DNA from: Salinibacter ruber DSM 13855
GTDB taxonomy: Bacteria; Bacteroidota; Rhodothermia; Rhodothermales; Salinibacteraceae
DNA length: 64,000 bases
Assembly: GCF_000013045.1 (NCBI RefSeq)
Contig: NC_007677.1
Location: 1,860,001 to 1,924,000 of the forward strand
Reading direction: 5' to 3'
Part shown: piece after piece, positions 12,459-24,578 of the stretch
How positions within the stretch are numbered: position 1 is the first letter of the stretch
Layout: each line of letters opens with the position of its first letter
Translations under genes and position numbers: made by a program
The notes under the pieces: generated by a model
The model's input: the letters and a program-made list of their open reading frames with translations, nothing else
Database searches by the model: none
Told to the model about the DNA's origin: nothing

Positions 12459-13673
12459 ATGGACCTCTTTAACCGCGATGAGCTGAAGCGTCTGGCCCAG
12501 TCGGACGACGGTCTCTGCATTTCGATCTACATGCCCACGCATCGGTTTCGGTCCGATTGGTCCCAGAACACGACCCGGTTCAAAAACCTTCTCCGTGACG
12601 TCCGGGATCAGCTTCGCGAACAGGAATACCGGGAGTCCGACATCGACGATATTCTGGGAGAGGCCCGCCAGCTCCTCGACCGACCCGGCTTCTGGCGCGG
12701 TCTCAGTGAAGGACTCGCGGCATTTTTGACGACCGACACGTCCGAGTTCTATCGCCTCCCGCTTCCGTTCGACGAGGTGGCAATTGTGGAGGATCGGTTC
12801 CACCTGAAGCCGCTCTTCCCACTGATTGCGTCAAACAACCGCTACTACCTGCTCGCCCTGAGCCAAAATGATGTCCGCCTCTACCAGGGCACGCATCAGG
12901 CCATCAGTGAGGTGGAGGCCGCCGAGATTCCCTCCGATATCGTGACGGCCATTCAGCAGTACGAGGAGCCCCCCGAGCAGGGCCTTCAGTCGCATGCGCA
13001 GGCGGCCCCGTCCTCGCCAGATGGGGGCGAGGCGGGTCAGGTGCGCCACGGCCACGGGTCGTCCGAAGACCAGAGCCGCGAGCCCAAAGATCAGCTTAAA
13101 CGCTTCTTTCGTCGCATCGACGAGAGTGTGACGGACTTTATCGGCGGGGAGGAGGCGCCGTTGGTTCTGGCTGGGGTGTCCGAGTACCTGCCGCTCTACA
13201 AGAGCGTCAATAACTTTCCCCACCTCGTAGACGACAACATCATCGCAGGAAATCCTGAGCAGCTGGAACTGAAAGAGCTCCACCGAGAGGCATGGTCGGT
13301 CGTCGAGTCGGTACTGCAGACGGTGCAACAGCAGGAGCTTGACCGCTTCGAGGACCTGTATCACGAAAACGCCGAGCTCGCCTCGGGCGATTTCCACGAA
13401 ATTGTCCCCGCCTGCGCGTACGGCCGCGTCGACACCCTCTTCGTTCCGCAGGGACAGTATCGCTGGGGACGATTTGACCCCGACAGCAACACGGTCAGGG
13501 TGCACGATTCGCAAGAGCCAGGAGACGGTGATCTTCTGAACTACGCCGCCCTCAAATCTTATTTGAGCGGTGCCGCCGTACATGTTCTGTCGCCGGAGGA
13601 GATGCCGGGCGGCCGCAGCGTCGCGGCCATCTTTCGGTACGAGGCGGACGTTACCGCGACCGAGACCGACTGA
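12459..13673 (+). CDS. baeRF-like protein (bacterial eRF1-related family)
   Basis: A 404-residue acidic cytoplasmic protein that resembles the bacterial archaeo-eukaryotic release factor-like families (baeRF3/baeRF7 type). The N-terminus MDLFNRDELKRLAQSDDGLC, followed by ISIYMPTHR, is typical. So are the middle YYLLALSQNDVRLYQG and the later LAGVSEYLPLYKSVNNFPHL. A low-complexity linker (about 170-210) is rich in Gln, Ser, Gly and Asp. These proteins share the eRF1 middle and C-terminal folds, but their role (ribosome rescue, stress or otherwise) is not established. It stands alone, with a gap of about 300 bases upstream and the recombinases downstream. Confidence 0.72.
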   Translation: MDLFNRDELKRLAQSDDGLCISIYMPTHRFRSDWSQNTTRFKNLLRDVRDQLREQEYRESDIDDILGEARQLLDRPGFWRGLSEGLAAFLTTDTSEFYRLPLPFDEVAIVEDRFHLKPLFPLIASNNRYYLLALSQNDVRLYQGTHQAISEVEAAEIPSDIVTAIQQYEEPPEQGLQSHAQAAPSSPDGGEAGQVRHGHGSSEDQSREPKDQLKRFFRRIDESVTDFIGGEEAPLVLAGVSEYLPLYKSVNNFPHLVDDNIIAGNPEQLELKELHREAWSVVESVLQTVQQQELDRFEDLYHENAELASGDFHEIVPACAYGRVDTLFVPQGQYRWGRFDPDSNTVRVHDSQEPGDGDLLNYAALKSYLSGAAVHVLSPEEMPGGRSVAAIFRYEADVTATETD

Positions 13674-13770
13674 CCCCGCTCTGAATCAGCCCTCAACGCG
13701 GCTCCTGCACCACAGGGGCCGTACCCACCTGTGTACATGATAAATAAAATTATTGTGCACAAAAGCACCT

Positions 13771-13788
13771 GTGATAAAATGACTTATC
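13771..13788. promoter_or_regulatory. Palindromic motif GTGATAAAATGACTTATC
   Basis: An imperfect palindrome (GATAA-N6-TTATC) lies 20 bases before the start of the degenerate recombinase. An 18-base sequence differing at only two positions occurs at 58299-58316. Position and symmetry suggest an operator for a dimeric repressor. The regulator is unknown; the pattern resembles Fur/DtxR-type boxes only loosely. Confidence 0.4.
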
Positions 13789-13807
13789 GCAGATACGAAT
13801 CAGGCGC

Positions 13808-14716
13808 ATGAAGCTTCTCGACTCGTTCCTACGCAGTCTCTCTTCGTCCCAGACGCGCCGGGCGTACCGGACTGATCTGCAGGCGTTTTTTTCGCAGGCG
13901 GAGGACATAACCGCTGACCTCGTGCAGGCAATCACGCATGAGGACATTCGTGCCTTTGTGGAGACTATGCATGATCTCGACTTGGCAGCGGGGACCCAGC
14001 GCCGACGCCTTGCGGCCCTCCGCTCATTTTTCGATTGGGCAATGACGGAACGCATTTACGACCGCAACCCGGCGCGCCATCCTGACGTAAAGCCGATGCC
14101 TCCGGCCGACGCATCTTCGTCCGTGCGCTCACTTACGAAGCTAGAGGTGCGCGACACGCTAGAGGCGGCCGGCGCGTCAGACGAGACTGGGCTTCGCGAT
14201 CAGGCAATCATCCTGACGACGATCCACGCGGCCCTGCGGCGGAGCGAAATCGCAGCCGTGGCGGTCGAAGACGTCCGGCCTCTCGGGCGGTATTGGATTC
14301 TTGAGGTGAATCCGGAGGGCACAGGCGAGGAATACGTTCGTATTCCCGATCAGGTCGTCAGTGTAATTGACAACGTAAAAGATCAGTTCGGGCTCACCGC
14401 CGGGCCGCTATGGCGCTCGATGAGCAATCGAAATCGCGGCGAGCCCCTTTCGGCGGACGCAATATATACGATCGTCCGTCGGGCCGGGACCGCCGCCGGG
14501 GTGGGCTCAATTACGATCGATACGCTGCGCCGCACCGGGCTGCGCCTTGCGGCCGACGGCGGCGCGAGCCTCTCACAGATTCAGGCCCATGGACGGTTCG
14601 GCAATTCTGCTGCGGCAGCACAGGTTCATGATCCCGAAACGACCGGGGGCAATCTCCAAGACAGTGCGGCCGTGCATATCGATTTTGATGTTTCGGAAGT
14701 CCTGCGAGGCGTGTAA
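13808..14716 (+). CDS. Degenerate tyrosine recombinase/integrase-like protein
   Basis: A 302-residue protein with the two-domain layout of XerC/XerD integrases. A SAM-like core-binding domain spans about residues 1-95 (SSSQTRRAYRTDLQAFF) and a catalytic-like domain about 108-290. Of the six catalytic positions only the two Arg appear to survive: Arg144 in AALRRSEI and Arg241 in DTLRRTGL. The conserved Lys is not seen in the GTGEEY turn. The first His is Asp238, the second His position aligns with Arg263 (HGRFG), and the Tyr nucleophile aligns with His274 (AQVHDPE). It may bind DNA without cutting. It starts 20 bases after a palindromic motif. An intact recombinase lies 0.5 kb downstream. Confidence 0.8.
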   Translation: MKLLDSFLRSLSSSQTRRAYRTDLQAFFSQAEDITADLVQAITHEDIRAFVETMHDLDLAAGTQRRRLAALRSFFDWAMTERIYDRNPARHPDVKPMPPADASSSVRSLTKLEVRDTLEAAGASDETGLRDQAIILTTIHAALRRSEIAAVAVEDVRPLGRYWILEVNPEGTGEEYVRIPDQVVSVIDNVKDQFGLTAGPLWRSMSNRNRGEPLSADAIYTIVRRAGTAAGVGSITIDTLRRTGLRLAADGGASLSQIQAHGRFGNSAAAAQVHDPETTGGNLQDSAAVHIDFDVSEVLRGV

Positions 14717-14977
14717 CCGGCCCCTGAAGCGCCTAAATTCGCCCTCCGTAGGAACGGGATCTAATAAGCGTTATGTTGCGTTTTTAGAATCGCGCACTCA
14801 TGCCGGCTGCCTGTGTCGCGCTGGCGGATGATGTGGGCCCTGTAGGCGTTGCCGAAGGTGCAGTCTGCAAATGCGACTGCGTCCCCCTACGTTATTCGGT
14901 ACGTTATTCGCTTCGGGGCGTCCATCGGTCAAGACAGCGTTGATGAATTCGTGGAGCATCCAATCGTCTTTCTATGT

Positions 14978-15160
14978 ATGAACGAAATCGGCGGAGTCTG
15001 GCTTTTCTTCGGGATCGACCTGCTAAGAAAGGCGCTCACTGGAGACTCGAGAACCAGCGAAGAAGGCGTCCGGATGACATCCGTCCCGGATCTTGTCTCC
15101 GGACTCATGCTCACCATTCTCGGCGGATGCTTCTGCCTCGGTTCACTGATCTGGATTTAG
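14978..15160 (+). CDS. Small hypothetical membrane protein
   Basis: A 60-residue open frame with two hydrophobic segments (VWLFFGIDLL and LVSGLMLTILGGCFCLGSLI) separated by a charged loop. The frame extends upstream to 14849, but that part includes a tandem 12-base repeat (coding YVIRYVIR) and looks less protein-like, so I place the start at 14978. It is unrecognised. It sits between the two recombinase genes and could be cargo or noise. Confidence 0.4.
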   Translation: MNEIGGVWLFFGIDLLRKALTGDSRTSEEGVRMTSVPDLVSGLMLTILGGCFCLGSLIWI

Positions 15161-15231
15161 GCCCGAGTTCCTAATTCTCAGGCATGACCGGCCGCCCCCG
15201 ATCCCTACCTCTGTGACCCACCGACTGAAAC

Positions 15232-16314
15232 ATGTCCAATTCGAGCCCGAGCTCAGACCCTCAGCCCATGCATGACACGAATGCGGAGCAGTCGCTCCGG
15301 AATGTCTCCCAACGCGGCGACGAGAATCGGCCGTACAACGCCCCCTCCGACGGCCAATGCTCAATCGAGTCCGACGAGGTGCTCGTGCGGCGCTGGCTCG
15401 CCGAGAAGAGCGCGCGGACGCAGGAGGAGTACGCCCGCGACTTCGAACAATTCGTTGAGTTCGTGGACCTTCCGCTCCGGTACGTCACGCTCGGCCACCT
15501 ACAGGAATACCGCGAGCACCTGAAAGACGGGTACGCGCGGTCTTCGCAAAAGCGAAAACTGTCGGCCGTAAAGAGCCTGTTCACGTTCGGGACGAAGCTC
15601 CGATACTTCGCCCACAACGTCGGCGCGGCCCTCTCCACCCCATCCGTCCGCAACGATCGCGCCGAGCGGATTTTGTCGGAGGCGGACCTGTGGGCCCTCC
15701 TGCGCGACGAGCGCGACCTGCGCAACCACGTGCTGCTCCGCCTGTTCTACGCCTCCGGCGGGCGGATCTCGGACGTCGAAGATCTTCGCTGGCGCGACCT
15801 GAAGGACCGCCCGGACCTGAACGGCCCGGACGGGCGGCCCGGCGGCCAGGTCACCTTCTTCGGAAAGGGCGGCAAGACCCGCGCCGTTACCCTGTACAGC
15901 AAGGTGTGGAGCCTGATTATCCGCCTGCGGGAGAACGAAGAGTCCGAAGGCCACGGAGCCGCCGACGATCCCGTCTTTCGATCCCAGAAAGGCGGATGCC
16001 TCTCGCGATCCCAGATCTGGCGCGTTGTGAAGAAGGCGGCCGTGCGGGCCGGGGTCAAGCTCACCGAGAAGACCGGCTCGGAGGGCGCAGTGAAACGCGA
16101 CGAAGAGGGCGAACCAATTATGACATCCGAGGTATCGCCGCATTGGTTTCGGCACGCCCACGCGTCTCATGCCCTGCAGAAGGGGGCCGACCTGGAACTC
16201 GTCCGCGAAACCCTGGGCCACGAGAGCATCGAAACGACAAAGACCTACCTCCACGCCCAACCCGGAAAGTCCTCTTCCTACTACGTGGACGAGGCGCCGG
16301 ACTTCAACGGATAG
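15232..16314 (+). CDS. Tyrosine recombinase/integrase, catalytically intact
   Basis: A 360-residue site-specific recombinase. The N-terminal 45 residues are polar and poorly conserved, and the core-binding domain spans about 47-135. The catalytic domain has every expected residue: Arg178 in ASGGRISD, Lys215 in GKGGKTR, His304 and Arg307 in SPHWFRHAHASHAL, His330 in ETLGHES and the nucleophile Tyr339 in TKTYLHA. It resembles Xer-like and mobile-element integrases. No att repeats, excisionase or phage genes were seen nearby, so what it moves is unclear. The insertion of about 25 residues before the HxxR motif (TEKTGSEGAVKRDEEGE) is longer than in XerC/D. Confidence 0.92.
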   Translation: MSNSSPSSDPQPMHDTNAEQSLRNVSQRGDENRPYNAPSDGQCSIESDEVLVRRWLAEKSARTQEEYARDFEQFVEFVDLPLRYVTLGHLQEYREHLKDGYARSSQKRKLSAVKSLFTFGTKLRYFAHNVGAALSTPSVRNDRAERILSEADLWALLRDERDLRNHVLLRLFYASGGRISDVEDLRWRDLKDRPDLNGPDGRPGGQVTFFGKGGKTRAVTLYSKVWSLIIRLRENEESEGHGAADDPVFRSQKGGCLSRSQIWRVVKKAAVRAGVKLTEKTGSEGAVKRDEEGEPIMTSEVSPHWFRHAHASHALQKGADLELVRETLGHESIETTKTYLHAQPGKSSSYYVDEAPDFNG

Positions 16315-16320
16315 AAGCGC

Positions 16321-17241
16321 TCAGTCCGTTCGGGCCAGCACGTCCAATTGATGGGCGATGTAGGTAAGCCGGCCTTCGTGAATCTGGCGGCGGCGATCCG
16401 ACAGCCAGTCCGCAAACGCGTCATCGTCGAGGGCCGGGTGGCCGCGAAGCTCGTTTTCAATGAAGTGCAGAATGTGGTAGAGAAAGTACGCCTCGTCCGC
16501 CGGGTAGTCCCCGTCCTGTGGCCAGACGATCCAGTCCGATCCGCCGGCCTCGAGAAGGGTACTCCCCGCGTCTCGGAGATGCGTCAAGAGACGTCGCCCC
16601 GATTGGTCACCGGCCCGACCGTCGTCGTGGTCGGTCGTCATGCTCTCGTGGTACAACGTTTCGACGCGCCCATCCAACCCCGAGTCGTGCGGCGGCTCGA
16701 AGGCCGTCACGCCGTCGAAATGAATCGGCAGGTACCACAGGCCCCGGTCACGGAGCAGCGGCCGGAGCGCCTGAATCGCGTCGGGGATCCGCAGCAGATC
16801 AAACAGCGCTTGTCCGACAATTGCGTCGAATCGGCCCCCATCGTGCGCCGCGGCGAAGTCGTACAGGTCTGCCGTCACGAACTCGAGGGCAACGGACTCG
16901 CCGTCCGCCGACCAGACCTGCGGGGATCGGCCGGTCACCTCGAACCCCTGTTGCTCCGCCCACGTCCGTAGTTCGGACGACGCGGTATCGAGCACCGCCG
17001 GATTCCGGTCTACGAGCGTATACCGGAGCGACGGGCCCGTTCGAACGTCCAGGGCAGTGACGATGCGCTCCACAGTCGCGCCAACGCCGGCCCCAACCTC
17101 TAAGATGCGGAGCGACGAAACGCCACCGAGCTCTTCGACGAAACGGGACCACACCCGATGATTGAGGGCGCGGCCGTCAATAGACTTTTTGGCCGTTAGG
17201 TACCGGGACAGGCGGTACGCGTCCGGAGCATTCACAGACAA
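16321..17241 (-). CDS. SAM-dependent methyltransferase (class I)
   Basis: A 306-residue Rossmann-fold methyltransferase with the SAM motif RILEVGAGVGATVERI near residue 45, the acidic strand-2 end YTLVDRNP, and VTADLYDF, followed by FDAIVGQALFDLL. The C-terminal 120 residues hold a substrate-binding part with several aromatic segments (DEAYFLYHILHFIENEL). The substrate is unknown. It is the last gene of the leftward four-gene unit, starting 22 bases after the PTPS-like stop, so its substrate is probably the pathway product of that unit. It is convergent with the intact recombinase, whose stop is only 6 bases away. Confidence 0.8.
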   Translation of the reverse strand: MSVNAPDAYRLSRYLTAKKSIDGRALNHRVWSRFVEELGGVSSLRILEVGAGVGATVERIVTALDVRTGPSLRYTLVDRNPAVLDTASSELRTWAEQQGFEVTGRSPQVWSADGESVALEFVTADLYDFAAAHDGGRFDAIVGQALFDLLRIPDAIQALRPLLRDRGLWYLPIHFDGVTAFEPPHDSGLDGRVETLYHESMTTDHDDGRAGDQSGRRLLTHLRDAGSTLLEAGGSDWIVWPQDGDYPADEAYFLYHILHFIENELRGHPALDDDAFADWLSDRRRQIHEGRLTYIAHQLDVLARTD

Positions 17242-17263
17242 GAGGGCGGGTCGGATAGAAAAA

Positions 17264-17635
17264 TTACGCCGTATAGGAGGCCCAGGCGGTATCGTCCTCC
17301 CAGATCTTGACGGTAACGGTCTCCAGCTGTGCCGTATTCAGCTGCTCCGTCAGGGCCGTGCAGAAGATTCGGGAGAAGTGCTCGATACTGGGATTCAGCC
17401 CCTCAAATTCGGGCAGGTCGTTCAGGGTGGCGTCTTCGTACCGGTCCACGAGGGCCTCAAGGGCCCCCTCCACCTCCACGATGTCGACGAGGTACCCGTG
17501 TTCGTTGAGCTCGTCTCCCTTCAACGCGACCTCGACGTCGAAGTGGTGCGAATGCCACTCGTTCTCAGGGCCACAGTCGGGGACTGTAAGATAGTGCTGC
17601 GCCACGAAGTCGCGGCGAACCATCAGTTCGTACAT
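17264..17635 (-). CDS. 6-pyruvoyl-tetrahydropterin synthase family protein
   Basis: A 123-residue T-fold enzyme of the PTPS/QueD family, which acts on dihydroneopterin triphosphate. The zinc ligands are His14 in FVAQHYL and His28 and His30 in NEWHSHHFDVEV. A candidate catalytic Cys21 sits seven residues before the His pair. The C-terminal part keeps the SIEHFSRIFCTAL helix and a Glu near the end (VKIWEDDTAWASY) for pterin anchoring. No queC or queE is adjacent, so a queuosine role is not supported here. Company with a GTP cyclohydrolase II fusion, a dehydrogenase and a methyltransferase suggests a distinct pterin-like pathway. Confidence 0.85.
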   Translation of the reverse strand: MYELMVRRDFVAQHYLTVPDCGPENEWHSHHFDVEVALKGDELNEHGYLVDIVEVEGALEALVDRYEDATLNDLPEFEGLNPSIEHFSRIFCTALTEQLNTAQLETVTVKIWEDDTAWASYTA

Positions 17636-17680
17636 GGCAGTGCCGTAGGGGTGAGAAGAAAACGGTTCAGTCGTACCGGT

Positions 17681-18709
17681 TCAGTTGTGCTGGAATACGG
17701 GCTGCAGCATCGAAGGATCGGTCGAAAGCTGTTCGTACGCTGCAGGAGCATCGTCGAGGGAAAATGTCTGGGAGACGAGGTCGCTCGGGGTGAGCGTGGG
17801 CAACAGGTCGAGCACCACGGACATGCGCCGGTCCTTTGTCCACCGGCCCCGAAGCGATGGATCGATGGTACTGACCTGACTGGAAATGATCTCCATTCGA
17901 GAGCGGTGAAAGTGACGCCCGAGGTCGATGGGGGCAGATTTCGTGCCGTACCAGGATCCCACCACGACCCGTCCACTGAAAGCCGTACGCTGCACCGCGT
18001 CGTTGAGTACGGACGGCTTCCCCGTCAGCTCGAACACGAGATCGGCGCGTGAAGCGTCGGGCCCAGAGGCGTCATGCCCCGTGCCCAGCTCCAGGTCGGA
18101 CGAAGAGGCCACGGCCGTTCCCCCCAGCGATTCCGACATGGCCCGCCGGTGGGGCGACGGCTCGACGGTCCAAAGCCCACGAAGCGGATGCCGAGACAAG
18201 AGCTGAGTCGTGAGCAGCCCCACAACGCCCTGCCCGAGCACAACGACCTGCTCCCCAACCATGGGGCGTCCGTCCATAACGAAGTTTACGGCCGTCTCTA
18301 CGGACGGGATCAGGGCGGCGTCTACAGCAGACACGGCGGGGGGCACGCGAACAAGAGCGGACGGCGACGTCACAAACCGGGACACGTGAGGCTGAAACGA
18401 AAAGACGGTGCGTCCCTCCCACTCAGCGTCGACATTGCTGCCCGTCGTCTCGACCGTTCCCACGCATGCGTAGCCGTAAGAGATGGGGTAAGAAAAATCG
18501 TCGTCCTCGAGGGCCTCGATCGTGGTATCGGCCGCCAGGGTTTCGGGAACGTGCCCCTCGTACACGAGCCGCTCCGTGCCCGGACTTACGGCCGAGCATT
18601 CCGTCTGGACCACCACCTCGTCTGGGGCCGGGTCCGGCACCGGCTCGGTCACCACTTCCACTTCACCAGGCCCCGTAAACTGTACCCGCCGGCGAGACGC
18701 ACTTGTCAT
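17681..18709 (-). CDS. MDR-family dehydrogenase (zinc-binding dehydrogenase type)
   Basis: A 342-residue medium-chain dehydrogenase/reductase. The N-terminal GroES-like domain starts EVEVVTEPVPDPAPDEVVVQ. The usual zinc Cys segment is replaced by ECSAVSPGTERLVYEGH, a form also seen in BchC-like members, and the usual four-Cys structural zinc lobe is absent. The Rossmann part has VVVLGQGVVGLLTTQLLSRH followed by VEPSPHRR. It probably oxidises or reduces a small molecule with NAD(P). It lies between the RibA/RibD fusion (49 bases upstream) and the PTPS-like gene (45 bases downstream) on the same strand. Confidence 0.82.
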   Translation of the reverse strand: MTSASRRRVQFTGPGEVEVVTEPVPDPAPDEVVVQTECSAVSPGTERLVYEGHVPETLAADTTIEALEDDDFSYPISYGYACVGTVETTGSNVDAEWEGRTVFSFQPHVSRFVTSPSALVRVPPAVSAVDAALIPSVETAVNFVMDGRPMVGEQVVVLGQGVVGLLTTQLLSRHPLRGLWTVEPSPHRRAMSESLGGTAVASSSDLELGTGHDASGPDASRADLVFELTGKPSVLNDAVQRTAFSGRVVVGSWYGTKSAPIDLGRHFHRSRMEIISSQVSTIDPSLRGRWTKDRRMSVVLDLLPTLTPSDLVSQTFSLDDAPAAYEQLSTDPSMLQPVFQHN

Positions 18710-18758
18710 GTGGGTTGGGTCTCGTTCGAACTGCGTGTGGAAAGCATCGAGGACGGCC

Positions 18759-20138
18759 TCACTCGGAGGCGACGGGCCATACAGGATCTCCTTCCAGGAC
18801 CAGGTCTTCTCCGTACCACCGCTGCTGGATGTTGTCCAACCGGGGAAAGTCTGACCGAGCGTGCGTGTCCTGATCTTCAGGGGCGAGCGAAGAGAGCGCC
18901 GCCGTTCCGCCTACGAACATGGGGGCGACAGTGACGATCACACGCTGGGCACACTGACGTCGCAGGAAAGAGGTGAGAATGCTCGTTCCCCCCTCCACCA
19001 TCACGCTGGAAAAGTCTCGCTCCCCGAGGGTGCGTAGGAGAGTCTTGACACAAATTCCCCCCTCCGGCCCGCAAGACAGTTCAATGACCGTGCCCCCGTG
19101 CGCTTCAAGTCGCTCTTTGCGGTCCGGGTCCGCGTTGGGGCTCGTGACGATGAGCGGATCCGGGCCGTCCCCCGCAAGAAGTTGTGCGTCGGAGGGGAAC
19201 CGCAGCGACGAATCCAGCACGATTGGGACCGGGTGCGTTCCATCGTTGTGTCGGACCGTGAGACGCGGGTCGTCGGCCAACACGGTTCCGATGCCGACGA
19301 GAATGCCGTCATGGAGCGCACGGAGTTGGTGGGTGAACCGAAGGGCCTGTTCACTGCTGATGGGGAGTGGTGTGCCCGACGTCGAAGCGATCGAGCCGTC
19401 TAGGCTCTGGGCGTACGTCAGTGTTACGAACGGCCGTCCCTTCTCTGCAAAATAGCGGTCAATCCGCTGCTTCAGGTCACGGAGTGATGTCCCATGGGCG
19501 TTGCCCTGAGCGTGCCCGTTCGCGGGTCCCAAATCCAAGATGTGACGCATCCGGTTTACCTTCGTCCGGAGGTACTCCGCATTGTGCCGGTTCACGTGGG
19601 GCTCAAGCGAAATCCGCTCGGTAATTTCAACCCCATGTTCGGCGAGGCTCTCAATCTTCTGTGGGTTGTTGGTCAGGAGGCGAGCGGACGACACACCCAG
19701 GTCATCGAGGATTCGTGCAGCGATGGCGTAGTCTCGCTCGTCGGCTCCGTGCCCAAGAATCCGGTTGGCCTCGACGGTGTCGTACCCGTCGTCTTGGAGG
19801 TTGTAGGCACGGAGCTTACTGAGAAGGCCGATCCCACGCCCCTCCTGACGCAGATAAAGAAGGATCCCCCGGCCGTTTTTTGCAATCCGTCGCATCGAAG
19901 CGTCGAGTTGCTCCCCACAGTCACAACGCAAAGACCCAAGGACATCACCGGTAAAGCACTCAGAGTGAACGCGTACCAGCACATCCTCCCCATCCGCGAC
20001 ATCCCCACACGCGAGTGCCAGGTGATCCTTGTCGTCCTTGCTGTTTTCGTACAGAGAGAGCGAGAACTCGCCGTCTACAGTGGGAATTCGAGCACTCGTC
20101 AACCGTTCGACGGAGGGAATCTCCATATCAGGGTTCAT
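18759..20138 (-). CDS. GTP cyclohydrolase II fused to RibD-type reductase domain
   Basis: A 459-residue two-domain protein. Residues about 10-205 are GTP cyclohydrolase II (RibA). They have zinc Cys61, Cys72 and Cys74 in SECFTGDVLGSLRCDCGEQL, the catalytic RQEGRGIGLLSKLRAYNLQD segment and LLTNNPQKIESL. After a short Gly/His/Asn linker, residues about 237-455 are a RibD C-terminal/dihydrofolate reductase-like domain (VTLTYAQSLDGSIAS, then ILVGIGTVLADDPRLTVR, then VMVEGGTSILTSFL). There is no RibB domain and no RibD deaminase domain, so this is not the standard RibBA or RibD. It could make a reduced pyrimidine or feed pterin-like chemistry with its neighbours. It is the first gene of the leftward unit, with a 359-base upstream region. 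Confidence 0.88.
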   Translation of the reverse strand: MNPDMEIPSVERLTSARIPTVDGEFSLSLYENSKDDKDHLALACGDVADGEDVLVRVHSECFTGDVLGSLRCDCGEQLDASMRRIAKNGRGILLYLRQEGRGIGLLSKLRAYNLQDDGYDTVEANRILGHGADERDYAIAARILDDLGVSSARLLTNNPQKIESLAEHGVEITERISLEPHVNRHNAEYLRTKVNRMRHILDLGPANGHAQGNAHGTSLRDLKQRIDRYFAEKGRPFVTLTYAQSLDGSIASTSGTPLPISSEQALRFTHQLRALHDGILVGIGTVLADDPRLTVRHNDGTHPVPIVLDSSLRFPSDAQLLAGDGPDPLIVTSPNADPDRKERLEAHGGTVIELSCGPEGGICVKTLLRTLGERDFSSVMVEGGTSILTSFLRRQCAQRVIVTVAPMFVGGTAALSSLAPEDQDTHARSDFPRLDNIQQRWYGEDLVLEGDPVWPVASE

Positions 20139-20497
20139 GAGCCGAGATCGGAATAAAAGGAACCACCACCGGCCGTTGGACGGCCAGCGTATGGCTGCTT
20201 ACAAGGGCCAATCAAATTCGACTTTGGATCAACCAGTTCCGTTGCGTAGGGTTTTGGGAAAACTGTTACGGAGCCGACTCGAAGAAAGCCACCACACGAT
20301 TGCTTACTTTGCAATAACAGAAGTTACAGATACTCCTCCAGTCCGTCCCTTGAATTATAGTAGAAGGCATCGTCCTTACGAGGAGCTTTTCGTATTCCAC
20401 CACCGAACTAGCAAACGTTCAGGCCCCGTAGTGGTAGAGAGAGTATCCTCTTTGTGATAGAATACCGCCCTGAGTCGCACCTTCAGACGCAGCTCCC
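20139..20497. other. Divergent intergenic region, no gene
   Basis: Lies between the RibA/RibD fusion (minus) and the ThiD-like gene (plus), so it should hold promoters for both. It is more AT-rich than the surrounding genes around 20210-20360. It contains a copy of the TTTGCAATAACAG motif at 20308-20320. I looked for an FMN riboswitch because of the RibA neighbour and saw none of its conserved segments. Confidence 0.6.
20308..20324 (+). repeat. Dispersed TTTGCAATAACAGAAGT motif, copy 2
   Basis: Shares 15 identical bases with the minus-strand copy at 5122-5136 and a 12-base core with 28839 and 59767. It sits about 175 bases before the ThiD-like start. It may be part of a promoter; function is unknown. 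Confidence 0.45.
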
Positions 20498-21343
20498 ATG
20501 CGCTTTCGTCCAATTGTTGTTGGGGCCTTGTACCCCGGCATCACACGCGGCCTAAGTGCCGACCTTCTCGCCACCCAGGCTCTTTCGGGGACGGGGTATC
20601 CAGTTTGCACCTCTCACGTCGTTGCCGGAGACGGCGTCGTGACGGACGTCCTCAATGTCCCGACGGACACCGTGGCCGCGCAGCTCGAACATTTGTTTGA
20701 GACCCGGACCCCGACCAGTGCCAAAGTGGGCATCATCGGGGCCACACCAACCGTGGACCGAGTGTTCGACCACCTTCACTCGCTGGACGGCCCCGTCGTC
20801 TACGACCTCACCGTGAGCGGTCCGAGTGGCGAGGACGTTGTCGAACAGGAAGGATTGGAGGCGATTGTCGAACGCCTCAGTGAGCCGGACCTCGTCACAA
20901 TCCGGCGCACAGATGCCGCCCTGGTAGCCGGCATGGAAATCCCCAGTCTGGACGATGCCCAGGTGGCCGCCCAACGGATTGCCCAGCAGGGGGCCGAGCA
21001 CGTTCTGATCCGTTGCGGAAAGCTTCCAACTCACTTCTACGACCAGGAAGGGTCTCCACCGGATTACGCCCTGGATCTCTTTTTCGACGGGGACGACTTT
21101 GCCCTCTTCGAGGCCCCACATCTTGACGGCCTCCAGTCGCACCATGGCGCATCGAGTGGCCTTTTGCTTCCCTTGCTCCATCACCTCCAGACCGGGATGG
21201 AACTCGAACCCGCACTCCAAAAGGCCAAGGGCCGGGTCTCCGAAGCCCTCCGGGCCCTTCAACAGGACGAGGGAGACAATCCAGACGCTACCTTCTTCGA
21301 GACCCTCGAAGAGGAACCGACCATGGCTGAGGTTCAAGAGTAG
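20498..21343 (+). CDS. ThiD/PdxK-like kinase, divergent
   Basis: A 281-residue ribokinase-fold protein resembling hydroxymethylpyrimidine/phosphomethylpyrimidine kinase. It keeps the overall order: an N-terminal Gly-rich start, VVYDLTVSGPSGEDVV at the phosphate-site strand, a DLVTIRRTDAALVAGM segment, AAQRIAQQGAEHVLIRCG, and a C-terminal helix. Two key places are altered. The N-terminal GSDSGGGAG-type loop is GALYPGITRG, and the nucleotide/anion-hole motif HGTGCT is HHGASSG. Activity as a thiamin kinase is therefore doubtful; a changed substrate or a regulatory role is possible. It has no thi genes beside it and is followed by a LacI regulator 41 bases later. Confidence 0.7.
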   Translation: MRFRPIVVGALYPGITRGLSADLLATQALSGTGYPVCTSHVVAGDGVVTDVLNVPTDTVAAQLEHLFETRTPTSAKVGIIGATPTVDRVFDHLHSLDGPVVYDLTVSGPSGEDVVEQEGLEAIVERLSEPDLVTIRRTDAALVAGMEIPSLDDAQVAAQRIAQQGAEHVLIRCGKLPTHFYDQEGSPPDYALDLFFDGDDFALFEAPHLDGLQSHHGASSGLLLPLLHHLQTGMELEPALQKAKGRVSEALRALQQDEGDNPDATFFETLEEEPTMAEVQE

Positions 21344-21384
21344 CCGCTCCCAGCCTCTTCCCCCTCTCAAATACGTGTTGCCTC

Positions 21385-22425
21385 ATGCCCAACGATGCGA
21401 AGGAGAACTCGAACCAGTCCAAGGCCACCATCTACGATGTGGCCGATCACGCAGGCGTTGCTATTTCGACCGTCTCGCGGGTGCTGAACGATTCGGAGGA
21501 CGTGGCCGACCAAACCCGAGACAAGGTAGTGCGGGCCATTCAGGAACTCCAGTTCCGCCCGAACCGGACCGCAAAGTCGCTCGCTCAACGCTCCACGCGG
21601 ACCATTGCCGTGGCGCTTCCCACGTTCACGACGCCCTTTCACAACGAACTGTTGAAGGGGGTGCGTGACCGGCTCGACGACGAGGACGTGGATCTGTTGC
21701 TCTGCGACCTGGAATGGGAAGCGCCGAAGCACTCCCTCCGCAGCTTTCTGGAGGGCGGCGCCATGGACGGGCTCCTGCTCGTGGGCGTGACCCCGGACGA
21801 GGACCTCGCCGACGAACTGCGGATGCTCGGGGGGCCGGTCGTGCTCGTCGGGGCCGAGCTGGCCGGCTTCGATTCATTCTACTGGGAGGACCAGCCCGGT
21901 GCGGAACTCGCAGTCAATCACCTCATCGACCAGGACTACACCCGGATCGGGGCCATCACGACGCCCCACGACAACCGTGTCCGCAACGAGCGGATCGCGG
22001 GGTATCGCCAGGCGCTGGAAGACGCGGGCATTGAGTTCAATTCCGACCTCGTGGTGCACGGCCACACTAGCAAGCACGATGGGTTCAGCGAAGAGTCCGG
22101 GTACGAGGCGATGCAGGACCTCCTGGCCCTCGACGACCCTGTAGAGGCCGCCTTTGCGAGCAGCGACGTACAGGCCATCGGGGCCTGGCAGGCACTCCGG
22201 GAAGAAGGATTTGAGGTGCCCGACGACTTTGCCTTTGTTGGGTACGACGACATTAAGGTAAGTCGCTTCATTGGACTGAGCAGCGTGGCCCAGAACATGC
22301 ACAACGTCGGGAACGAAGGCACCGATCTTCTCCTGGACCGATTGGAGAAGCGGGGACCCGAGAAGTACACCTCCCGCTTGGTGGAGCCGGAACTCCACAT
22401 TCGAAAATCGAGCCAACGTCCCTGA
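21385..22425 (+). CDS. LacI-family transcriptional regulator
   Basis: A 346-residue repressor-type regulator. The N-terminal helix-turn-helix is typical (TIYDVADHAGVAISTVSRVL, about residues 13-32, with the hinge helix LAQRSTRTIAVALP around 66-79). A periplasmic-binding-like effector domain follows (DGLLLVGVTP, FVGYDDIKVSRFIGLSSVAQ). The ligand is probably a sugar or purine, but no transporter or sugar-catabolic genes flank it, so its regulon is unknown. It lies between the ThiD-like gene and purC. A link to purine control (PurR is in this family) is possible but is only inferred from position. Confidence 0.92.
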   Translation: MPNDAKENSNQSKATIYDVADHAGVAISTVSRVLNDSEDVADQTRDKVVRAIQELQFRPNRTAKSLAQRSTRTIAVALPTFTTPFHNELLKGVRDRLDDEDVDLLLCDLEWEAPKHSLRSFLEGGAMDGLLLVGVTPDEDLADELRMLGGPVVLVGAELAGFDSFYWEDQPGAELAVNHLIDQDYTRIGAITTPHDNRVRNERIAGYRQALEDAGIEFNSDLVVHGHTSKHDGFSEESGYEAMQDLLALDDPVEAAFASSDVQAIGAWQALREEGFEVPDDFAFVGYDDIKVSRFIGLSSVAQNMHNVGNEGTDLLLDRLEKRGPEKYTSRLVEPELHIRKSSQRP

Positions 22426-22536
22426 GTCCCTCCAGGCGCCTCACCTGTCGACGCGCCCACCCCAATTTCGGGACGGAGCACGCCCCTTCAGTCCTCGCCT
22501 CCCTTTCACCCCTCAACTGCGGCGGAGCCCCGTTTT

Positions 22537-23511
22537 ATGGACAAGCAACTCATTGAAGACCAGCTGGACCACACCATCGAGCAGACCGGTTTTGACGACC
22601 TGGGAGAGATCTACCATGGAAAGGTTCGCGACAATTACCGACAAGGCGATCGGCGCATTCTGGTCACGACCGATCGGATCTCTGCCTTTGACCACGTCCT
22701 CCCACAGACCATTCCATTCAAGGGACAAATTCTGAATCAGACGGCCGCCTACTTCTTCGACGCCACAGAAGATCTTGTCCCGAACCACGTCCTCTCCGTT
22801 CCGGACCCCAATGTGACTATCGCGAAGGAGTGCACCCCCATTCCCATCGAGTTTGTGGTGCGGGGCTATTTGGCCGGGCACGCCTGGCGGGAATACGACC
22901 GGGGGACACGGACCCTCTGCGGGAAGAGCCTACCGGACGGACTCCGAGAGAGCGAGCAGCTGCCCGAGCCGATCCTCACTCCTACCACCAAGGCCGAAGA
23001 GGGGCACGACCAGGACGTGAGCCGAAAGGAGGCGCTTGCAAATACCGGCCTGGCCCCCGCCACCTACGACCAACTCGCAGAGTGGGCCCTCGCGTTGTAC
23101 CGACGCGGCCACAAGATGGCAACGGAGCAGGGCCTCCTCCTCGTCGATACGAAGTATGAATTTGGCCGCACGCCCGACGGGGATCTCGTGTTAATCGATG
23201 AGGTGCACACCCCCGACTCATCGCGGTACTACTACGCAGACGGGTACGAGGATCGCCTTGCCGAGGGCCGTCCCCAGAGGCAGCTCTCGAAGGAGTTCGT
23301 TCGGGAGTGGCTCATGGACCATGGCTTCCAAGGACGAGCCGGCGACGAGATGCCCACGCTTCCGGATGCGTTCCGAGCAAAAGTTACGAAGCGCTACGTG
23401 GAGCTCTTCGAAAAAGTGACGGGACAAACGTTCGAACCGGATACGCACCCCAACCCTGAAGCCCGTATCCACTCGGCCCTAGGCGATTACGTCGTTCAGG
23501 AGTCGCACTAG
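22537..23511 (+). CDS. purC: Phosphoribosylaminoimidazole-succinocarboxamide synthase
   Basis: SAICAR synthetase joins CAIR and aspartate using ATP in de novo purine synthesis. At 324 residues it is the longer form of the family. Signatures are GKVRDNYRQGDRRILVTTDR near residue 28, ISAFDHVLPQTIPFKGQILN, PIEFVVRGYLAGHAWREY, and LVDTKYEFGRTPDGDLVLIDEVHTPDSSRY, split here only by reading. Other pur genes are elsewhere. The last four bases overlap the convergent nitrilase-family gene. Confidence 0.96.
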   Translation: MDKQLIEDQLDHTIEQTGFDDLGEIYHGKVRDNYRQGDRRILVTTDRISAFDHVLPQTIPFKGQILNQTAAYFFDATEDLVPNHVLSVPDPNVTIAKECTPIPIEFVVRGYLAGHAWREYDRGTRTLCGKSLPDGLRESEQLPEPILTPTTKAEEGHDQDVSRKEALANTGLAPATYDQLAEWALALYRRGHKMATEQGLLLVDTKYEFGRTPDGDLVLIDEVHTPDSSRYYYADGYEDRLAEGRPQRQLSKEFVREWLMDHGFQGRAGDEMPTLPDAFRAKVTKRYVELFEKVTGQTFEPDTHPNPEARIHSALGDYVVQESH

Positions 23512-24353
23512 GAGCCCGACTCCAGGGCCGTCCCCTCTTCCGACGTCGCGGCGTACGTGGCGGGACGTCGGTCTCGCAGGACATCGTTGTGGGCATTGAT
23601 GTTGCGGTCGCGCGCCTCACGCGGATTGAGCTCAACGACCTCCACCACGTCCGCCGACTCGTCGGCCCGCGTCAAGATGGTCCCCGAGGGGGCGCACACC
23701 TCACTCATCCCGATGAATCGCAGGGATTCCCCCTCCTTCTCCTCTCGTCCGTGCCGGTTGGCCGTGATGGTGAAGACGTGATTCTCACGAGCACGGACCG
23801 GCATGGAATCAGGGCAGTGTGGGAGGACAAGGTTGGAGGGATGAGCGATCACGTCCGCCCCTCTCAACGCAAGCGTGCGGGCTGCCTCGGGAAAATACCA
23901 GTCGAAGCACACCATGACCCCGAGGCGGTACGAGGTCCCTGCCGCGGTGTGCTCCTCAAAGACCCGAAAGCCCAGGTCGCCCGCCTCAAACAGGATCGTC
24001 TCCTCGTAGAAGAGGTGAACCTTGCGGTACGTGTCCACCCGGCCGTCGGGCCGCACCACCACCGCGCTGTTGTAGAAGTGATCCCCATCCCGCTCGGCCA
24101 GCCCCGCTACGAGTGTCGCCCCCAGCGAGTCGGCCCAGCCCCGCAGTGCCGCCACGGATTTGCCGTTGGGGATCGGTTCGGCGACGCGTTCCAGATCGTC
24201 CTTCGACTGAAAAAAGTACCCGGACGTAAACAGCTCGGGCAGGACGATCAGGTCCGCCTCAACGGAACGAAGAAGCGATTCGACCGCGGCGAGGTTTTGA
24301 TCGACCTCAAGGTACGCGGGGGCAAACTGGAGATAGGCAGCTCTCACGGGCAC
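23508..24353 (-). CDS. Carbon-nitrogen hydrolase (nitrilase superfamily)
   Basis: A 281-residue cytoplasmic amidase-like enzyme with the Glu-Lys-Cys catalytic triad: Glu40 in LIVLPELFTSG, Lys111 in TYRKVHLFYEE and Cys149 in VMVCFDWYFPEAAR. The family hydrolyses amides such as N-carbamoylputrescine, omega-amidase substrates or deaminated glutathione. The YRKVHLF/CFDWYFPE pattern is not enough to choose. The C-terminal 30 residues are variable. Its end overlaps purC by four bases in convergent orientation, and its start leaves about 225 bases before the peroxiredoxin gene. Confidence 0.88.
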   Translation of the reverse strand: MPVRAAYLQFAPAYLEVDQNLAAVESLLRSVEADLIVLPELFTSGYFFQSKDDLERVAEPIPNGKSVAALRGWADSLGATLVAGLAERDGDHFYNSAVVVRPDGRVDTYRKVHLFYEETILFEAGDLGFRVFEEHTAAGTSYRLGVMVCFDWYFPEAARTLALRGADVIAHPSNLVLPHCPDSMPVRARENHVFTITANRHGREEKEGESLRFIGMSEVCAPSGTILTRADESADVVEVVELNPREARDRNINAHNDVLRDRRPATYAATSEEGTALESGS

Positions 24354-24578
24354 TCAACACTGGAGCGTGGGGACATTCGGACCGATGCCCCATCGGGCCT
24401 GCGCCATGGACCCTCCAGCCCGTTTCGACGGCGCAGGCCGCGGATGGACACCGACGTTCCGGCTCCCTCATGAGCAGTGAGGAGAGAACGGATAATGCTT
24501 AGTGTAGGGGATCAGGCAGGCGAGATCAAGGCCCGAAGCGGCCGGATGGTTAACAAGGCAAATTGCAACAACAGATGC

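Follow-up and report, generated by a model that had tools for sequence, protein, structure and literature searches.

Related Systems

The Streptomyces coelicolor protein SCO6650 was deposited as a homologue of 6-pyruvoyl-tetrahydropterin synthase (PTPS). It is reportedly devoid of zinc and of PTPS activity and is located near SCO6655, in which Met reportedly occupies the position of the active-site Tyr of GTP cyclohydrolase II (GCH II) and the reaction stops at the formylated stage; its surroundings are known as uncharacterised. Other comparable clusters are those of the toxoflavin-type azapteridines, in which GCH II, a RibD-like enzyme and an S-adenosylmethionine (SAM) methyltransferase act on a GTP-derived pyrimidine; we know of no pair of PTPS and medium-chain dehydrogenase/reductase (MDR) genes in them. 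The present study concerns an operon of Salinibacter ruber DSM 13855 encoding a fusion of GCH II with the reductase domain RibD_C, an MDR oxidoreductase, a PTPS-like protein and a SAM methyltransferase. It is located in a stretch of 64,000 nucleotides of contig NC_007677.1 (positions 1,860,001 to 1,924,000), here called the window, whose numbering is used for the operon.

In the reading that we favour, with moderate confidence, the operon encodes the first part of a pathway that is biochemically uncharacterised, departs from riboflavin synthesis at the level of the first intermediate and also occurs in several bacterial phyla and in haloarchaea. As its product we propose a methylated pterin-like compound made from a ribityl-pyrimidine. 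The operon is not a categorically new system, since SCO6650 was deposited as a PTPS homologue and its surroundings are known as uncharacterised; it is a differing form of a known, unsolved cluster type. The suggestion in the first-pass annotation of similar gene mixes in actinomycetes proved sound, as SCO6650 is the nearest solved relative of the PTPS-like protein and a related cluster is present on a plasmid of Streptomyces. In the literature searched, whose coverage leaves out most subscription journals, no description of the gene set or of its metabolite was found, nor were the RibA/TrpF folate route of Chlamydia and the halopterins.

Operon Layout and Selection

The ORF check reproduced the layout given in the first-pass annotation, four open reading frames on the minus strand, with the following coordinates:

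18759 to 20138, minus strand: GCH II/RibD_C reductase fusion, 459 aa (Pfam GTP_cyclohydro2, 228.2 bits; RibD_C, 153.5 bits)
17681 to 18709, minus strand: MDR oxidoreductase, 342 aa, assigned on Pfam matches that all lie below their curated cut-offs (ADH_zinc_N, 29.6 of 31.8 bits; Glu_dehyd_C, 30 of 34.9 bits)
17264 to 17635, minus strand: PTPS-like T-fold protein, here "type A", 123 aa (Pfam PTPS, 98.7 bits)
16321 to 17241, minus strand: class I SAM methyltransferase, 306 aa (Methyltransf_12, 32.2 bits, cut-off 30)

The intergenic gaps were, in gene order, 49, 45 and 22 bases. The methyltransferase gene has a TTG start in the window and in the nearest genome, which belongs to the same genus (G191) and shares 96–97% protein identity for all four products. 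The dN/dS ratios against this genome were 0.07 for the fusion, 0.15 for the MDR, 0.13 for the PTPS-like and 0.10 for the methyltransferase gene, so that all four genes are maintained; they are real and under purifying selection. The genome comprises 3,587,328 bases in two contigs and is 99.99% complete.

The Fusion Enzyme and Its Probable Link to Riboflavin Synthesis

In the fusion protein, GCH II spans residues 12–176 and RibD_C residues 236–447, and a deaminase domain was not found. The closest solved relative of the GCH II half was the Escherichia coli enzyme (PDB 2bz0, E = 1.9e-62), whose active-site Tyr105 aligns with Tyr112; the zinc cysteines and the RQEGR motif are present, and the TIGR00505 score was 251.6 bits (cut-off 205.85), which identifies this half as a GCH II. 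The RibD_C half was identified as a reductase by its TIGR00227 score of 172.5 bits (cut-off 150.15) and by its kinship to Bacillus subtilis RibG, its best solved match (PDB 2b3z, E = 9.7e-34); next in rank were 2,5-diamino-6-ribosylamino-pyrimidinone reductases, named for the undeaminated pyrimidine. Both halves keep the family sequences of RibA and RibD/RibG, from which they differ in being fused to one another, without deaminase, in an operon with non-riboflavin genes.

The only other GCH II match in the genome was the RibBA gene (G000:C1:11129-12376; L126:6130-7377). Its 3,4-dihydroxy-2-butanone 4-phosphate (DHBP) synthase half, RibB, is intact (276.8 bits). The GCH II half (C1:11786-12280) has lost the zinc cysteines and the catalytic motif, with HSQN...RESYS and MMQSNHG in place of the HSEC...RCDCG and RQEGRG of active enzymes, and scored 113.3 bits with TIGR00505 (cut-off 205.85). 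All seven genomes of the family that carry the fusion show this decay. In the seven same-order genomes searched that do not carry it, among them G250 with an unfused RibD_C in its cluster, the GCH II half of RibBA is intact. The genome has RibB, RibD (deaminase and reductase) and RibH, and GTP cyclohydrolase III (GCH III) was not found in it. With the GCH II half of RibBA decayed, the fusion is, judging from sequence, probably the only competent GCH II in the genome; as RibD and RibH are present and GCH III was not detected, it very probably supplies riboflavin synthesis as well, which would place the operon at a branch point. In other lineages, the cluster copy was the only GCH II found in four of the ten other cluster genomes searched (G395, G397, G398 and G506), at least three of which are metagenome-assembled genomes (MAGs) and may be incomplete.

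Recurrence of the Gene Set

A gene-neighbourhood search, suggested in the first-pass annotation as a check, recovered the families side by side in distant lineages. The MDR, PTPS-like and methyltransferase genes are adjacent in the kin of S. ruber, in some Chloroflexota and in haloarchaeal megaplasmids; in Legionella and one spirochaete the set is present without a recognised methyltransferase. With the fusion as query over GTDB contigs, 63 loci were obtained. Forty of them were screened and none matched two of the four proteins, and the other 23 went to profile search. A type-A PTPS gene was held by 15 of these 23 and not by L038, L048, L049, L053 (cut off by the contig end), L093 and L094 (type B), L095 and L096. 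The 15 loci, from two Bacteroidota MAGs, six Chloroflexota, six Legionella and one spirochaete, all contained MDR, RibD_C and GCH II, together with a GT4 glycosyltransferase in 13 and a methyltransferase in seven.

A search with the PTPS-like protein only was added to avoid the bias of the fusion query, and partners were counted within 7 kb. In the phylum of the window, strong matches were found in eight of 394 genomes (145 to 278 bits; next match 43.6). The seven kin loci, the window's own excluded, all had MDR, RibD_C and methyltransferase, with GCH II in six and GT4 in one. In Chloroflexota, 12 of 151 genomes gave at least 165 bits (centre genome included; next match 86 bits), and their loci contained MDR (9/12), GT4 (9/12), methyltransferase (4/12) and GCH II (1/12). 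Plasmid matches above 46% identity comprised ten records, all haloarchaeal, of which nine were compared, the tenth being a second record of the same plasmid. In all nine, the MDR, PTPS and methyltransferase genes are colinear with and homologous to those of the window. GT4 was counted in five; at the three loci with GCH III, an annotated GT4 gene located 4–5 kb away (29–35 bits) was left uncounted. Around other PTPS genes, used as control, fusion, MDR, methyltransferase or GT4 was found in none of 22 loci, 1.5 kb being covered on each side. A chance neighbourhood was rejected on the basis of this recurrence and of the control loci without partners.

Some loci showed particular features. On Haloarcula marismortui pNG700 (L120:8948-9315) the match to the type-A PTPS gene falls in two reading frames; this gene is not listed in the gene table of PLSDB, which is incomplete, and the adjoining MDR and GT4 genes are. 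In the Salinibacter genome G195 (L130:13772-15859) a Gfo/Idh-aldo/keto reductase fusion is located just upstream of the operon, and a protein built in the same way adjoins the cluster of Haloarcula sinaiiensis. The Legionella wadsworthii genome (G396, L187) has a second type-A-like PTPS (157 bits), with no other cluster genes within 18 kb.

Outside the family, the GT4 gene usually adjoins the PTPS gene, namely in most Chloroflexota, in Legionella, in the spirochaete and in five of the nine haloarchaeal loci. It is not present in the window; one other Salinibacter, G195, has it between the PTPS and methyltransferase genes, and a relative's GT4 gave seven matches of 28–33% identity in the window genome. 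The structures nearest to a relative's GT4 were 3c4q/3c48 ("predicted glycosyltransferases"); a tetrahydrobiopterin glucosyltransferase matched weakly (8e-6), which is not decisive. CDP-alcohol phosphatidyltransferase genes are nearby in six of the nine haloarchaeal loci and in five of the 11 type-B plasmid loci compared; the CDP-alcohol transferase gave weak matches only.

Type-A and Type-B Clusters and Their Entry Enzymes

In the PTPS of actinomycetes and proteobacteria, designated type B, HGA stands in place of HSH. Of 20 type-B plasmid records, 11 were compared, with MDR nearby in eight and GT4 in seven. Three Streptomyces plasmids (L109, L121, L124) carried a type-B PTPS without MDR or GT4 in the examined stretch. 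The MDR and PTPS trees share the split between both types, with a Chloroflexota locus (L188) intermediate, and differ in detail within type A. In the PTPS tree the haloarchaea are nested among the Salinibacter family (16 rows, 93/99), a placement that would suggest exchange among halophiles; this is not so in the MDR tree.

The relative of the SCO6650 cluster used for comparison was not that of S. coelicolor but the type-B cluster of a Streptomyces fungicidicus plasmid, with MDR, GT4, methyltransferase, creatininase-family, GCH II and CDP-alcohol phosphatidyltransferase genes. The window shares with it the order MDR-PTPS-(GT4)-methyltransferase, GT4 being missing in the window, and the presence of a GTP cyclohydrolase. 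They differ in that the MDR and PTPS trees assign the window to the separate type-A group, with HSH vs HGA, and in that Streptomyces encodes GCH II, with Met for Tyr, as a gene of its own, whereas in the window it is fused to RibD_C.

The entry enzyme is also exchanged in other members. A GCH III gene (PF05165), of a family unrelated to GCH II, precedes the MDR gene in three of the nine haloarchaeal loci, all on Haloarcula plasmids (the one scanned gave 272.6 bits). In S. fungicidicus, the plasmid-borne GCH II with Met at the position of E. coli Tyr105 adjoins the creatininase-family gene. According to PMC9478397, a creatininase-family formamidase deformylates the GCH III product to 2,5-diamino-6-ribosylamino-4(3H)-pyrimidinone 5'-phosphate (DARoPP). 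Judging from the enzyme families, DARoPP, the first intermediate of riboflavin synthesis, would be the common end point of all three entry routes.

Cytochrome b genes adjoin some type-B clusters (L115:11528-12085; L117:12055-12582, of b561 type by Pfam; L123:12011-12544), and flippase-like or LPG-synthase-TM genes are present in L116, L117 and L123. These neighbours could mean that the product is redox-active or resides in the membrane.

The PTPS-like Protein and the Second PTPS Gene

The PTPS-like protein shares with QueD, PTPS and PTPS-III (COG0720) the T-fold, the three zinc histidines (His14, His28 and His30) and an aligned glutamate near the C-terminus (Glu113). It differs from them at the catalytic residues, with Glu24 at the place of Cys and Glu67-Asp68 at that of the Asp-His pair. 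H14, E24, H28, S29 and H30 are invariant over 18 aligned rows and D68 nearly so; a later row from Chloroflexota (L179) has Asn at His28. The TIGR03367 (QueD) score was 46.4 bits, below the cut-off of 89.25. With the catalytic Cys, Asp and His absent, a plain QueD identity was rejected. The name "6-carboxytetrahydropterin synthase", which implies queuosine synthesis and under which plasmid records annotate relatives of the gene, is unsupported by the active-site residues. The best solved match by sequence was SCO6650 (PDB 3d7j, E = 8.7e-08). The AlphaFold model (pLDDT 95.3) aligned with SCO6650 (Z 18.2, 1.4 Å over 123 residues) and with E. coli QueD with sepiapterin (Z 17.3), the two being tied.

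The first-pass annotation would have regarded its proposal as refuted if the fusion and the PTPS-like gene were the sole GCH II and the sole QueD of the genome and so simply served riboflavin and queuosine synthesis. Half of this applies: the fusion was in effect the sole GCH II, but the PTPS-like gene is not the sole member of its family, as a second PTPS gene was found directly before FolE (C1:3452.7-3453.8 kb; the PTPS gene at G000:C1:3452703-3453116, L128:9704-10117). In the second protein, HGH and the Asp-His pair are conserved; its QueD score is 68.8 bits, below the cut-off of 89.25. The catalytic Cys is replaced by Asp in the window genome, G191 and G195 and kept in G325, G340, G384, G305 and G250. 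A short-chain dehydrogenase/reductase (SDR) gene follows FolE, an arrangement that resembles biopterin synthesis.

Proposed Pathway and Alternatives

A separate, GTP-derived and methylated product, as put forward in the first-pass annotation, is the best reading of the operon because the families recur together and the PTPS-like protein is devoid of the QueD catalytic residues. The part of that proposal that was not supported is the independence from riboflavin synthesis, given the decay of the GCH II half of RibBA.

The GCH II half would open GTP to DARoPP and the RibD_C half would reduce its ribose to ribityl, both steps being supported by close homology. The MDR enzyme would then oxidise the ribityl 2'-hydroxyl to a ketone. 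Its nearest named NCBIfam model was BchC (TIGR01202), the bacteriochlorophyllide secondary-alcohol dehydrogenase, with a score far below the cut-off (71.9 of 291.25 bits), and polyol dehydrogenases were among its solved matches; the role of secondary-alcohol oxidiser is suggested because both BchC and polyol dehydrogenases oxidise such alcohols. The resulting open-chain ketone would be identical to that formed by GTP cyclohydrolase I in its Amadori step. Ring closure between this ketone and the 5-amino group, either spontaneous or on the zinc T-fold of the PTPS-like protein, could then yield a 6-substituted dihydropterin (phosphate). The dihydropterin phosphate would be a fitting substrate for a T-fold protein. 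The methyltransferase would finish the molecule, in relatives presumably together with the GT4 glycosyltransferase and the CDP-alcohol phosphatidyltransferase. In its widest form, the scheme would be a redox bypass of GTP cyclohydrolase I in Bacteria and Archaea (GCH II or III, RibD_C at C1', MDR at C2', T-fold closure) leading to a FolE-free dihydropterin, methylated and often glycosylated; we regard this extension as speculative and rather unlikely. A replacement of FolE in folate synthesis was rejected: among 26 genomes whose PTPS is of type A, of type B or intermediate, 22 have a FolE match above the cut-off.

Several observations weigh against the proposed pathway. With FolE in those 22 genomes, most such cells should already be able to make dihydroneopterin triphosphate, which weakens the pterin end; in the other four, G395, G398 and G547 had no FolE match and G394 had a fragment. 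The MDR protein appears to be devoid of the canonical zinc ligands, as judged by eye against those of alcohol dehydrogenase (ADH), unlike most polyol dehydrogenases. The mean pLDDT of the methyltransferase model is 77, and no substrate follows from its fold matches, which include 3mgg (Z 20.3) as well as histamine and purine-alkaloid methyltransferases (Z about 16–18). A local GCH or RibD_C is absent in 11 of the 12 Chloroflexota loci of the PTPS search, some of them on short contigs. As for the entry routes, one of the six GCH II genes from type-B or related loci has Met at the place of Tyr, and in Aquincola (L093) a Tyr-type GCH II occurs together with a creatininase match. As GT4 is absent from the window, the product made there may not be that of its relatives, and the altered catalytic residue of the second PTPS leaves room for a queuosine role of the operon's gene.

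The alternative that survives best, possible though clearly less probable, overlaps with the proposed pathway up to the ribityl intermediate. The product would retain the ribityl chain, as an 8-ribityl pterin or a ribitylamino-pyrimidine conjugate, and would be methylated and, in relatives, linked to sugar or lipid, with MDR and PTPS acting elsewhere. The frequency of FolE agrees with it, as a start with GCH II and a reductase is sensible if a feature specific to that route is kept, and so do the CDP-alcohol phosphatidyltransferases near haloarchaeal and type-B plasmid loci. It is opposed by the PTPS-family protein, which suggests chemistry on a 6-substituted pterin, and by the lack of an annotated lumazine synthase in the examined plasmid loci, to which that search was confined.

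We consider it unlikely that the operon is just the riboflavin entry operon of the lineage, in which the fusion replaced the decayed half of RibBA, the remaining three genes being passengers or serving flavin housekeeping. This would explain why, in the seven family genomes, no GCH II other than the fusion was found to have intact zinc cysteines, and would suit the four other cluster genomes in which no GCH II was found besides the cluster copy. However, in archaea, Chloroflexota and kin, MDR and PTPS occur together whether or not a GCH II is nearby, usually accompanied by a methyltransferase; the established riboflavin pathway requires none of the three; and genomes of the same order without the set keep an intact RibBA. 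Least probable is a role of the PTPS-like gene in queuosine, folate (PTPS-III) or biopterin synthesis with incidental neighbours, to which the PTPS fold, a Glu at the catalytic Cys that recalls Plasmodium PTPS (E37 mutant entries among the structure matches) and a second PTPS with Asp for Cys and a score below the QueD cut-off, whose role the operon gene could share, lend some appeal, but which is contradicted by the HGH, Asp-His pair and FolE-adjoining position of that second PTPS, by the low QueD score and missing Cys, Asp and His of the operon gene, and by a subfamily that tracks the MDR gene, not FolE, in most loci.

Operon Surroundings

No Rfam family was found at threshold in positions 13000–24500, and control of the operon by a riboswitch was rejected for lack of an Rfam match. 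Promoter and terminator scans gave one site each, not above shuffles. A tyrosine recombinase gene (PF00589; 15232 to 16314, plus strand) is convergent with the operon and ends 6 bases from it; its relatives (74–84% identity) adjoin the operon in L129, L036, L037, L131 and L133.

Significance

The gene set is present in haloarchaea, Chloroflexota, Salinibacter and Legionella, with a sister form in actinomycetes and proteobacteria. A varying entry enzyme together with a constant predicted first product points to a shared metabolite. In Salinibacter, the fusion is apparently the only working GCH II, a role that connects the uncharacterised pathway with an essential vitamin and allows the two to be tested in a single strain.

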